Below are positions 52,867 through 57,148 of a stretch of 64,000 nt of DNA, one piece after another. Made by a program: the position numbers and the translations under genes. The DNA is from Auraticoccus monumenti (GTDB lineage: Bacteria > Actinomycetota > Actinomycetes > Propionibacteriales > Propionibacteriaceae). The notes beneath the pieces are model-generated. The model made no database searches, was not told the origin of the DNA, and worked only from the letters and a program-made list of their open reading frames with translations. Position 1 is the first letter of the stretch. Each line of letters opens with the position of its first letter. Location of the stretch: positions 434,001 to 498,000 of the forward strand of contig NZ_LT629688.1 of NCBI RefSeq assembly GCF_900101785.1. The letters run 5' to 3'.

Positions 52867-54189
52867 ATGCCCCGCGAACGCTACGGAATCATCGGCACCG
52901 GCTCCCGAGCAGGGATGTACATCGGGGCGATCACCGGAGAGCACGCCGACAAGGCCGAGCTCGTCGCCTGGAGCGACACCAACCCCGGCCGCCAGGACCA
53001 CTACGACGCCGTCGTGGCCGCGGCGGGCTCCCCGCTGCCGAGCCGGTGGGCCCCCGCCGACGTCGAGGCCATGGTGGCCGAGGAGCGCCTGGACCGCGTC
53101 GTGGTGACCAGCCCGGACCACACCCACGCCGAGTACGTCTCCCGGGTGCTGCTCGCCGGCGCCGACGTCGTGGTGGAGAAGCCGCTGACCATCGACGCCG
53201 AGGGCGTGCGCCGCATCGCGGCCGCCGTCGCCGAGAGCGGTCGTCAGGTCGTCACCACGTTCAACTACCGCTACAGCCCGCGCAACAGCAGCCTCAAGAC
53301 GCTGATCAGCGAGGGGCGGGTGGGCCAGGTGACCAGCGTCCACTTCGAGTGGGTGCTGGACACCGCCCACGGCGCGGACTACTTCCGTCGCTGGCACCGC
53401 CAGAAGCAGAACTCCGGCGGCCTGCTGGTGCACAAGGCCTCCCACCACTTCGACCTGGTCAACTGGTGGATCGACGCCCACCCGACCCGGGTCTTCGCCA
53501 GCGGCGGCCTGCGCTTCTACGGCCGCGAGAACGCCGAGAGCCGTGGTCTCGGTCCCCGCCCCGAGCGTGGCACCGGGCACGCGGCGGGGGACCCCTTCGC
53601 CCTCGACCTCAGCCAGGACGCCCGCAACAAGGCCCTCTACCTCGACAACGAGCACCACGACGGCTACCTGCGCGACCGCGACGTCTTCGACGAGGGCATC
53701 GACATCGAGGACAACCTGTCGCTGCTGGTCGACTACGACAACGGCGCCACCATGAGCTACTCCCTCAACGCCCACTCCCCCTGGGAGGGCTACCGGGTGA
53801 TGGTGAACGGCACCGAGGGGCGGGCCGAGCTCGAGGTCGTCGAGCGGGCGGCCGTCGTGGTGGGCCCCGAGAGCCTCGGCATCGTCGACCCCACCGCCAC
53901 CCCGGCCGACTTCGGCGTCGACGAGGTGCGTCCGGAGAGCGAGCGGCTGCTGCTCCAGCGCCACTGGGAGCGCGCCACCGAGGTGGAGATCCCGGCCGGG
54001 GTCGGCGGCCACGGCGGCGGTGACGCCTACCTGCTGCAGCACCTGTTCTCCCGCACCACCACCGACGAGCCGCTGCACCGGGTCTCCGGTCTGGAGGACG
54101 GCGTGGCGGCGGTCTCGGTCGGCATCGCCGGCAACCGGTCGCTGGAGACCGGTCTGCCCGTGGTCGTCGCCGAGCTGGACCTGCGGTGA
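52867..54189 (+). CDS. Gfo/Idh/MocA family oxidoreductase (sugar locus, first)
   Basis: The 440-aa enzyme has the Rossmann GIIGTGSRAGMYIGA, the catalytic VVVEKPLTID (EKP) and a long C-terminal domain with GGLLVHKASHHFDLVNWW. At 440 residues it is longer than typical inositol dehydrogenases (about 340) and resembles the large Gfo/Idh members found in sugar-utilisation loci. ATG 52867 follows AAGGA. It overlaps the next gene by four bases. It probably oxidises or epimerises a sugar taken up by the nearby ABC system. Confidence 0.9.
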   Translation: MPRERYGIIGTGSRAGMYIGAITGEHADKAELVAWSDTNPGRQDHYDAVVAAAGSPLPSRWAPADVEAMVAEERLDRVVVTSPDHTHAEYVSRVLLAGADVVVEKPLTIDAEGVRRIAAAVAESGRQVVTTFNYRYSPRNSSLKTLISEGRVGQVTSVHFEWVLDTAHGADYFRRWHRQKQNSGGLLVHKASHHFDLVNWWIDAHPTRVFASGGLRFYGRENAESRGLGPRPERGTGHAAGDPFALDLSQDARNKALYLDNEHHDGYLRDRDVFDEGIDIEDNLSLLVDYDNGATMSYSLNAHSPWEGYRVMVNGTEGRAELEVVERAAVVVGPESLGIVDPTATPADFGVDEVRPESERLLLQRHWERATEVEIPAGVGGHGGGDAYLLQHLFSRTTTDEPLHRVSGLEDGVAAVSVGIAGNRSLETGLPVVVAELDLR

Positions 54190-55316
54190 GCGGACCCGCC
54201 CGCGCCGGCCGGGTGCTGCGGGCGGCGGTGGTCGGCGCCGGCGCGGTGTCGCGTCTGCACGTCCGGGCCCTCGAGGCCTCCCCGCACGCCCGCCTGGTGG
54301 CGGTCACCGACCAGCAGCGCGAGCGCGCCGAGGCGCTGGTCGACGGGTGCACCCCCGACCCGGACGGCAGCCTGCCCCGCGTCCACGACGACCTGGCCAC
54401 CCTGCTGGCCACCGAGCAGGTCGACGTCGTCCACATCTGCACCCCGCCAGGTCCGCACCGCGAGCAGACCGAGGCGGCCGTCGCGGCCGGGGCCCACGTG
54501 GTCTGCGAGAAGCCGCCGGCGCTGAGCCTGGACGACCTCGAGGCGATGACCGACGCCGCGCGCCGGGCGGGGCGCGAGCTCGCCGTGGTGTTCCAGCAGC
54601 GCACCGGCAGCGCGGTCGAGCACGTCCGCGGACTGCTGACCTCGGGCCGGCTCGGCCGTCCGCTGGTGGCTCTCTGCCACACCCTCTGGTACCGCGACGC
54701 CGACTACTTCGCCGAGCCGTGGCGAGGCCGCTGGGCCACCGAGGGCGGCGGCACCACGCTCAGCCACAGCGTCCACCAGATCGACCTGATGGTCCACCTG
54801 CTCGGCGACTGGGCCTCGGTCCGGGCCGACCTGTGGCGGCTGGACCGCGAGGTCGAGACCGAGGACGTCTCCACCGCCACGGTGCGCTTCGCCGGGGGCA
54901 CGGTGGCCTCGCTGGTGGCCAGCGTCCTGTCCCCGCGCCAGACCAGCTCGCTGCGGATCGACACCGAGCACGCCACCGTCACCCTCGACCACCTCTACGG
55001 CCACGGCCACGACCACTGGCGGATCACCCCTGCCGCGCACGTCACGACCGAGGAGGCAGCGGGGTGGGCGCTGCCCGCCGCGGAGCGACCCAGCTCCCAC
55101 GACGACCTCGTCGCCTCGGTGTACGCCTCGCTGGCCGGGGGACGGCCGCTGCCCGACGTGGTGACCGCCCCGGCCCGGGCGCTGGAGATCGTCACGGCGA
55201 TCTACGCCTCCGCCGAGCTCGGCAGCGAGGTCACCCCGGAGCAGCTGCGCACCGACCCGCACCGCGCCGGTCTGAAGAGCACCGTCCGCGACCTCAGGAC
55301 CGTCCCCGCACGCTGA
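54186..55316 (+). CDS. Gfo/Idh/MocA family oxidoreductase (sugar locus, second)
   Basis: The 376-aa enzyme has AAVVGAGAVSRLHVRAL, VDVVHICTPPGPH, HVVCEKPPALS (EKP with catalytic Lys) and GGGTTLSHSVHQIDLMVHLLG in the C-terminal domain. GTG 54186 overlaps the stop of the first oxidoreductase (GTGA), so the two are made together and may act on the same sugar, for example as a keto-sugar pair. The gene ends 545 bp before the ABC transporter genes. Confidence 0.9.
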   Translation: MSGPARAGRVLRAAVVGAGAVSRLHVRALEASPHARLVAVTDQQRERAEALVDGCTPDPDGSLPRVHDDLATLLATEQVDVVHICTPPGPHREQTEAAVAAGAHVVCEKPPALSLDDLEAMTDAARRAGRELAVVFQQRTGSAVEHVRGLLTSGRLGRPLVALCHTLWYRDADYFAEPWRGRWATEGGGTTLSHSVHQIDLMVHLLGDWASVRADLWRLDREVETEDVSTATVRFAGGTVASLVASVLSPRQTSSLRIDTEHATVTLDHLYGHGHDHWRITPAAHVTTEEAAGWALPAAERPSSHDDLVASVYASLAGGRPLPDVVTAPARALEIVTAIYASAELGSEVTPEQLRTDPHRAGLKSTVRDLRTVPAR

Positions 55317-55369
55317 GCCGCACCGGCCCCGGACACCTCCCCAGGATCCGCCCCCGCCCCTGATCGCCT

Positions 55370-55606
55370 GTATGTCGTTCCGCTCTCGGCCGGCGTGTCA
55401 CGGCGTGTCGCGCTGTACCGACCTCTTGGCCCACACGTGTGCAGGGATGCGCCGCTGTCGTCTCCTGGGGTGACCGCGGCTCCAGCGTGCGCTCACGGCC
55501 AGCACAGCGGACACCTCCACCCAGGTCAGCCCTGCAGGGCTGTACGCCGTGGGCTCGGTACAGCGCGACACGCCACGCCACGCCGGTGGCGATCGCGACG
55601 ACATAC
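55370..55606. repeat. 237-bp element with 52-bp inverted arms
   Basis: The left arm 55370-55421 and right arm 55555-55606 are inverted copies with 43 of 52 positions identical. The inner 20 bases (GGCGTGTCGCGCTGTACCGA and its complement) match perfectly, and the outer nine (GTATGTCGT) too. Further paired blocks continue inward (GCCCAC/GTGGGC, GCAGGG/CCCTGC). The RNA would fold into one long hairpin. A MITE-like remnant or a structured RNA are both possible. Confidence 0.85.
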
Positions 55607-55744
55607 ACGCGGGCAGGGGCGGCCGGAGATCACCGGTCGCGAGTCGAGCGTCCGGCAGCCCGGTCTCGCGCGGCGCCCTGCAGAGTCGGCGGGGGCGGCA
55701 GACCGGTCAGGCAAGCACCGGCCCGAAGCCGCACGGTCACAGGA

Positions 55745-55814
55745 TTGAATCGTTTTTAGGACGGGCTTGCATCGGACCCCACGACTACCTACCCTCGGAC
55801 CGGTAAGCGCTTTC
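55745..55814 (+). promoter_or_regulatory. Promoter with two LacI-type operators before the sugar ABC operon
   Basis: TTGCAT (55767-55772), a 17-nt spacer and TACCCT (55790-55795) form the promoter. TTGAATCGTTTTTA (55745-55758) lies just upstream and GTAAGCGCTTTC (55803-55814) just downstream of the -10. Both carry the central CG of LacI-family sites and resemble the site at 52837-52850. Confidence 0.78.
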
Positions 55815-55861
55815 TCACGCCCACCTGACCCGAGCGACAACGACGTTCCGGAAGGACAACG

Positions 55862-57148
55862 ATGTTCCCATTCACCCGAGGTCGCCGTGCGGCCGCCGCT
55901 GTCGCCCTGACCCTGAGTGGCGCGCTGGTCCTCAGCGCCTGCGGAGGCGGCGGTGGCGAGGAGGGCGCGGAGGGGCCGGTCACCCTCGACTTCGCCTTCT
56001 GGGGCAACGACGCCCGCGCCGCGATGTACACCGAGGCCATCGACGCCTTCACGCAGCAGAACCCCGACGTCACCGTCAACGTCCAGTTCCTCGGCTTCCC
56101 CGAGTTCTGGGAGCGGCGCCAGGTCGAGGCCGCCGGCGGTGACCTGCCCGACGTGATGCAGTTCGACTACTCCTACCTGCGCCAGTACGGCGAGGAGGGC
56201 ATGCTGCTCGAGCTGGACGAGTACGTCGGCAACGGGCTGGAGACCTCGACCCTGGACCCCGCGGTGCTGGACACCGGCAAGGTGGACGGCACCCAGTACG
56301 GCGTGCCCACCTCGACCAACGCGTGGACGCTGTTCCAGAACGACGACCTGCTGGCCGAGGCCGGGGTCGACCCCTACCCCGGTGGCGGCAGCTGGGAGGA
56401 GTACAACGCCTGGTCGAAGTCGGTGACGGAGGCCACCGACGGCGAGGTGGACGGCACCACCGGCTACACCCGGATCCAGAACTTCGAGATCTGGCTGCGG
56501 GCCCAGGGCGGCCAGCTCTTCACCGAGGACGCCCAGCCCGGTTTCACCAAGGACCAGCTGCGTGAGTTCTTCAACCTCAGCCAGCCGACCCGGGAGGAGA
56601 ACGGCGGCGGCGTCTCCGGTCAGGAGGCCGAGGAGGTCTACCCGCTGTCGGCCTTCGACGCCGGTCTGGGCGCCAGCGAGCTCACCTGGGACAACTTCGG
56701 GGCCAACTACAAGTCCAACCTGGGCGAGGACGTCGAGCTCAGCATGGTCGAGCCGCCCGTCACCGTCGAGGGCGCCCAGGACCTGTACCTGAAGCCGTCG
56801 ATGCTGCACACCATCTCGGCCGAGACCGAGCACCCCGAGGAGTCTGTGGCCCTCGTCGACTTCCTGGTGAACTCCCCCGAGGTCGGCGCCGCCTTCGGCA
56901 CCAACCGTGGTCTGCCCGCCTCCAGCTCCCAGCTCGAGGGCGTCGACCTGGGTGACATGGACAGCGACATCAAGGCCTACGAGGAGTCCATCGCCCCCCG
57001 CCTGGGTGCCGCCCCGCCGGCCCCGATCAACGGCTTCGGCAGCGTCGAGGAGGAGTTCCGCACCACCGGCACCGACCTCGGCCTGGGGGTCATCACCGTG
57101 GACGAGGCGGTCGACCAGATCTTCCGCGAGATGGAGAACCTGATCTGA
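55862..57148 (+). CDS. Sugar ABC transporter substrate-binding lipoprotein (family 1)
   Basis: The 428-aa binding protein has a signal peptide with lipobox VLSAC followed by a Gly/Glu linker. The mature part has VTLDFAFWGNDARAAMYTEA, LPDVMQFDYSYLRQYGEEG, GVPTSTNAWTLFQNDDLLAEAG and the C-terminal PEESVALVDFLVNSPEV, all typical of family 1 (oligosaccharide) solute-binding proteins. It should capture a galactoside or related sugar for the two permeases that follow. ATG 55862 follows GGAAGGA. Confidence 0.94.
   Translation: MFPFTRGRRAAAAVALTLSGALVLSACGGGGGEEGAEGPVTLDFAFWGNDARAAMYTEAIDAFTQQNPDVTVNVQFLGFPEFWERRQVEAAGGDLPDVMQFDYSYLRQYGEEGMLLELDEYVGNGLETSTLDPAVLDTGKVDGTQYGVPTSTNAWTLFQNDDLLAEAGVDPYPGGGSWEEYNAWSKSVTEATDGEVDGTTGYTRIQNFEIWLRAQGGQLFTEDAQPGFTKDQLREFFNLSQPTREENGGGVSGQEAEEVYPLSAFDAGLGASELTWDNFGANYKSNLGEDVELSMVEPPVTVEGAQDLYLKPSMLHTISAETEHPEESVALVDFLVNSPEVGAAFGTNRGLPASSSQLEGVDLGDMDSDIKAYEESIAPRLGAAPPAPINGFGSVEEEFRTTGTDLGLGVITVDEAVDQIFREMENLI

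Follow-up and report, generated by a model that had tools for sequence, protein, structure and literature searches.

The closest described relatives of the locus analyzed here are the REP/RAYT systems, in which dispersed palindromic repeats accompany a single chromosomal gene that has its own repeat on both sides, in inverted copies; the repeat differs from gene to gene, and some genomes contain orphan repeats (PMC2817692). In the related REPIN arrangement, inverted doublets predominate and the spacers are less conserved than the arms (PMC3116915). In this work we analyze a palindrome in a 64,000-nucleotide stretch of the Auraticoccus monumenti genome (hereafter the window; NZ_LT629688.1, positions 434,001 to 498,000) and find that its hairpin is one copy of a dispersed repeat family, R1, consisting of two inverted 89-bp units around a unique core. 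Like REPs, R1 repeats are dispersed and palindromic, a cognate gene lies between two inverted R1 copies (in the sister species only), and the family is orphan in the host of the window. We hold with moderate confidence that the window element carries no gene and is formed by two inverted copies of a palindrome-ended repeat, and that its cognate protein is an AbiEi-like/DUF559 nuclease that would spread the units in trans.

A sequence-only reading had delimited an inverted-repeat element at 55370-55606. The arms it described (55370-55421 and 55555-55606) agree, as claimed, at 43 of 52 positions and include a perfect 9-bp outer end and a perfect 20-bp block, and the palindrome also passes the shuffled-sequence test proposed for it. 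When 55350-55626 is folded as RNA, z reaches -7.48 on the forward and -7.55 on the reverse strand, and none of 200 shuffles is equally stable on either strand; together with the further genomic copies, this stability rules out a chance palindrome. Complementarity continues beyond those arms, pairing 55345-55449 with 55527-55631 (105 nt at 74%), and repeat search and family alignment give the complementary arms a full extent of 55345..55631, including weakly conserved outer CGAC/GTCG-like bases. The borders of the element are better set by conservation among copies, which resolves it into 89-bp units and a core. The left unit (CCCTG...CAGGG; 55358..55446, forward strand) corresponds to a match of the R1 model at G000:C1:489358-489446 (73.5 bits, E 6.2e-20), and the inverted right unit (55530..55618, reverse strand) to one at G000:C1:489530-489618 (73.1 bits, E 8.1e-20); both belong to the training set of that model, and the left unit was first found by DNA search. 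The outer (55358..55379) and inner (55425..55446) ends of the left unit, both on the forward strand, form an imperfect terminal dyad, and the 83-nt core between the two units (55447..55529) is unique to the window copy. Open reading frames across the palindrome are short and, judged by eye, none is transposase-like, in agreement with the initial reading. Rfam covariance models gave no match at E <= 1 within 55200-55900, and a known RNA family was set aside on that ground.

The host genome, G000, is a single contig of 4,461,688 bases in which the window is C1:434001-498000; a DNA search for the further copies that the sequence-only reading had proposed to look for revealed many divergent ones there. 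Aligned copies define the R1 unit as an 89-bp sequence, CCCTGnnCGGCTGTATGTCGTC...GACGnCGTACACGTnnnCAGGG, with imperfect dyad symmetry between its ends: across the 64 full-length units, the 22-nt ends pair at a mean of 14.3 of 22 positions, as opposed to 6.2 after shuffling. The R1 model uses sequence only and was trained on the 23 units of the host, all of which score E <= 1e-17, the next match lying at E 0.008. These units are laid out as 10 inverted doublets and 3 singles, for a total of 13 sites. The sister species Auraticoccus cholistanensis (G001), the only other genome of the genus searched, holds 51 units, which were not used in training. Both genomes combined contain 31 doublets and 12 singles; every doublet is inverted and presents the same unit end to the outside. 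Unit length is nearly fixed, with 63 of 74 units matching across exactly 89 nt and the other 11 reflecting mostly trimmed match ends, one assembly gap and one true 1-nt deletion. The gap lies in G001:C8, near 75989 (L165), where an R1 unit runs into an N stretch and the assembly gap falls on the hairpin. Doublet cores measure 61-141 nt, except for one of 925 nt, and a comparison of 30 cores detected no similarity beyond shuffles, either among them or to the interior of the DUF559 gene described below.

Outside the genus the family is sparse. Across 198 genomes of the bacterial family, searched with stricter filters and the best 22 candidates per genome, at least 12 have a match at E <= 0.001. 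Among the matches listed, the only genome beyond Auraticoccus with several is G068, from another genus (10 matches, best E 3e-15); nine further genomes have one weak match each among their best 22 candidates. Viral contigs contain no exact match to the outer end of the unit. The initial description of the element as MITE-like is apt in part: the copies are short, geneless, dispersed, inverted and at species-specific positions, but the building block measures 89 bp and not 237 bp, each core differs from the others, target-site duplications could not be defined, and the partner is likely a DUF559 nuclease rather than a transposase.

In the open-reading-frame list, the element lies between two forward-strand genes. 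The upstream gene (54186..55316), which by eye we take to encode a Gfo/Idh-type oxidoreductase, stops 41 nt before the left unit; the downstream gene (55862..57148), presumably a sugar ABC substrate-binding lipoprotein, also by eye, starts 243 nt past the end of the element. A separate palindrome, TAAGCGCTTTC, lies outside the repeat element at window positions 55803-55815, upstream of the substrate-binding gene, and we take it to resemble operators of the LacI/GalR family. The suggestion that the element insulates two halves of a LacI regulon finds no support in a special tie to that regulon, since R1 copies adjoin unrelated genes.

A second suggestion, that the upstream transcript ends in this hairpin, fits the nearby position of the upstream stop codon, but a search of 55200-55900 for intrinsic terminators (a GC stem followed by a T-run) yielded none. 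The same evidence bears on the broader, unlikely alternative that the units are kept as bidirectional terminators or mRNA-stabilizing hairpins, with the DUF559 link being secondary. Folding is strong on both strands, and a crude gene caller places the 43 R1 loci of the two Auraticoccus genomes in 9 convergent, 26 tandem and only 3 divergent gene arrangements, with 5 unclear; 3 divergent sites in 38 fall below an assumed quarter (p 0.014). Yet no terminator with a U-tract was found, a hairpin of this kind would not need a near-fixed 89-nt length, and it would leave the repeats flanking DUF559 genes unexplained. The consensus of a single unit folds weakly (-8.1 kcal/mol on one strand, -4.3 kcal/mol on the other). 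The arms pair better than permuted ones in the host (p 0.0004), whereas the sister species shows no such excess (p 0.40), so that co-variation of the arms is not a general rule of the hairpin and was dropped as such.

Comparison of the two species points to turnover of R1 sites. A counterpart region in the sister could be assigned for 10 of the 13 host sites (from matches on both flanks at 7 and on a single flank at 3), and R1 is present in none of the 10, with no match better than E 0.06. Neither target-site duplications nor exact empty sites can be read at these counterparts, because intergenic DNA has diverged too far between the species. At one such site (L012/L142; G001:C17:138800-143000), the place of R1 is taken in the sister by another long hairpin together with one copy of a DUF559-linked unit from G068 (E 3.2e-6), and different repeat families therefore use the same spot.

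The dispersed, inverted and geneless nature of R1 would also suit a conventional MITE that depends on the transposase of an IS not detected here, with DUF559 as a passenger or bystander. We give this possibility little weight: it does not account for the association of DUF559 genes with different units throughout the bacterial family, no target duplication was seen at counterparts whose flanks are too diverged, and the Y1 transposase domain (PF01797) typical of RAYTs is absent from the host genome in an IS search that covered Y1 only. A RAYT as the partner of R1 in the host was rejected on the same ground, the bracketed gene of the sister matching DUF559/MTES_1575 instead.

The two genomes differ also in the similarity and number of their copies. 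Unit similarity is 0.815 within the sister, 0.747 within the host and 0.755 across genomes. More similar units in the sister are expected if only its units, with the gene present, are still spreading, and the values fit decay of an orphan family in the host, although they come from one species pair and age alone could explain the host value. Abundance follows the same order, again in one pair of species, with 51 units where the cognate gene is present and 23 where it is not. Single units are not more decayed than units in doublets (0.835 vs 0.828 and 0.886 vs 0.876, based on 3 and 6 full-length singles).

The gene in question was located in the sister species at C9:517005-518107 (L059), where the only R1 doublet with a long core (925 nt) encloses an AbiEi-like and DUF559 gene whose stop codon falls inside the right R1 unit. 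Its product scores above the cut-off for DUF559 (23.3 vs 20.6 bits) and below the respective cut-offs for MTES_1575 and AbiEi_4. No cognate DUF559 gene of R1 was found in the host, and the R1 family is hence an orphan in the genome of the window. The absence of DUF559 remnants from the 30 cores, which resemble neither the gene interior nor each other, argues against the doublets being simple internal deletions of a DUF559 element, and this origin was set aside.

Among 26 aligned relatives of the protein, DUF559 matches all 26, MTES_1575 24 and AbiEi_4 7, and the commonest single AbiEi model of PADLOC matches 13. All 26 sequences have the nuclease residues D233, E244, D246 and D259 without exception, and the C-terminal part yields PDB profile matches to 3hrl (E 8e-13) and to 3r3p, annotated as a 'mobile intron protein' (E 2.5e-6), which we take to be an EDxHD homing endonuclease. 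Matches to AbiEi and defence-candidate models raise the possibility of an AbiEi/DUF559 defence nuclease, acting against phages or as a selfish addiction module, for which the repeats serve as labels of self DNA or from which they are left over. This appears very improbable, given that no partner toxin gene sits in the 925-nt interior (by eye, no adjacent AbiEii gene is found among the called ORFs within L059) and that phages and plasmids have hardly any relatives of the protein (0 and 1 record, respectively, at the reach of the search).

AbiEi antitoxins bind inverted repeats in their own promoter, and the terminal dyads of R1 could likewise make the units immobile, operator-like sites bound by the AbiEi/DUF559 protein for auto-regulation and control of a regulon. 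Operators are, however, poorly reconciled with units that flank the gene left and right and occur mainly where genes end, with spaced inverted doublets, with the lack of shared positions in 10 of 10 counterpart regions of the sister, and with a host in which the cognate gene was not found; we regard this explanation as improbable.

Our preferred reading, in which the DUF559 protein acts on the repeats, draws on a wider survey of the bacterial family. DUF559 proteins occur in 52 of the 58 genomes sampled, and several other DUF559 genes in both Auraticoccus genomes are bracketed by repeats of differing sequence. To quantify this pattern, matched flanks, direct or inverted, were scored as two-sided repeats if they exceeded the 99th percentile of mispaired flanks. 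By this measure, 27 of 77 DUF559 genes carry two-sided repeats, as opposed to 0 of 55 neighbouring control genes (p 6.6e-8); 50 of the 77 fall below the threshold, and removal of the 9 discovery loci leaves 21 of 68 (p 9e-7). The set derives from 78 loci (9 discovery, 29 further and 40 taken in list order) minus L093; eight rows, mostly short contigs picked by eye before any sequence was seen, were skipped in the second batch of 20. In an earlier flank test, the 99th percentile of the null was exceeded by 28 of 78 loci for inverted and 23 of 78 for direct repeats; the maximum of that null, 351, probably arose where homologous loci were paired with each other. L082 passes this earlier test and fails the 77-locus one because a longest-ORF start shifts its left region. 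The start of the right repeat often lies no further than some ten bases from the stop codon of the DUF559 gene, and in clear cases the units are ~65-90 bp long with ~20-bp inverted ends.

Units flanking DUF559 genes are themselves commonly dispersed. With the best 40 candidates scored, five such units of the host recur at E <= 1e-5 in no fewer than 30 separate remote places (22, 4, 3, 1 and 0 by unit), so that four of the five are dispersed and the fifth has no remote copy at that threshold among its best 40 candidates; under the same scoring, six control 3′ flanks of the host yield no remote place at E <= 1e-5 (best non-self E 7.5e-5). The ~70-bp unit beside the host DUF559 gene at 2771841 forms clusters of two or three copies, direct or inverted, reminiscent of REP clusters (G000:C1 576096-576397, 538458-538831, 3397831-3398081, 3694546-3694742 and 1301368-1301585). 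The pattern reaches other genera: in G087, one of two DUF559-linked units has 4 remote copies (E < 1e-4); in G068, two of three DUF559 genes are bracketed and one unit has 3 remote copies. Since 27 of 77 genes are bracketed against 0 of 55 controls and four of five host units are dispersed, a DUF559 gene tends to come with a palindromic repeat family of its own, much as REPs belong to RAYT transposases, although the nuclease is unrelated.

The units also appear to change quickly. A syntenic DUF559 gene (L064, L065 and L179) is shared by G000, G001 and G068, from two genera, at 50-56% identity, in what we read as the same gene neighbourhood in the three species, and its flanking units are unrelated. 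We infer that repeat specificity has switched; unrelated units at a retained locus fit fast co-evolution, but also a non-essential unit. Three relic-like copies of a G068 DUF559-linked unit persist in G001. A search for units common to related DUF559 genes returned only 5 pairs above a score of 36, all with similar downstream DNA and therefore uninformative.

We infer from these observations that the nuclease mobilizes the repeats. The AbiEi-like part would recognize the dyad of the unit, and the DUF559 nuclease would cut there, either one strand or a folded single strand; repair or joining may then spread units or doublets in trans, by analogy with RAYTs, which are thought to spread REPs and REPINs. 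The species of the window would have lost, or never had, the cognate gene, and its copies would therefore be decaying relics. Gene 3′ ends presumably tolerate copies, and the hairpin may incidentally stop or stabilize transcripts. Against mobilization stand the singles, which are not more decayed, the cores devoid of gene remnants and the lack of a readable target duplication.

More generally, the bracketed DUF559 genes with their different repeats suggest a bacterial repeat-and-nuclease system that has gone unrecognized. Should each DUF559 protein own and spread a repeat family, a domain of obscure role would gain a function, many intergenic palindromes of high-GC actinobacteria would be explained, and caution would be warranted against taking such hairpins for ordinary terminators. 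A Caulobacter DUF559 protein is treated as a mismatch-repair endonuclease in one study (PMC12907096). The open-access literature searched, with that study and a paper retrieved for MTES_1575 (PMC3710099) among it, showed no link between DUF559 and repeats; an earlier description may exist elsewhere.

Compared with known systems, R1 shares with bacterial MITEs its short, geneless and dispersed copies with terminal inverted repeats, and departs from them in that its core is not shared and the related 'autonomous' copy carries a nuclease instead of a known transposase, the other cores having no remnant of it. Free-standing EDxHD/Vsr-fold homing endonucleases share the nuclease fold of the DUF559 protein, as its profile match to 3r3p illustrates, but DUF559 relatives lie outside introns and inteins, between genes and bracketed by repeats, and homing fails to explain the dispersed, non-homologous sites of R1. 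The N-terminal part is AbiEi-like, as in type IV AbiE toxin-antitoxin systems, but here it is fused to a nuclease, and no AbiEii partner accompanies it in the R1 copy. As in REPINs, doublets predominate (31 of 31 inverted), whereas the arms are 89 bp long, the spacers are unrelated and the singles are no more decayed than the doublets. The likeness to REP/RAYT extends to different DUF559 genes carrying different repeats, counted on the flanks in either orientation. The differences are that the R1 nuclease is DUF559/Vsr-like and RAYTs are HUH-tyrosine (Y1) enzymes of the IS200/IS605 type, that the unit measures 89 bp and REPs 20-40 bp, that DUF559 genes are flanked on both sides in 27 of 77 cases whereas for RAYTs such flanking is described as universal, and that R1 numbers 23-51 copies per genome as opposed to more than 100 for REPs. 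On this basis we tentatively put forward, as a possibility that we rate short of probable, a new class of mobile mini-elements: palindrome-ended actinobacterial repeats of ~80-90 bp spread by a resident AbiEi-like/DUF559 Vsr-fold endonuclease, forming an independently evolved REP/RAYT-like pair with fast switching of specificity. If so, this would be a second, independent partnership of the REP/RAYT type built on a different nuclease, and comparing the two would allow a test of why such pairs are maintained in bacteria.
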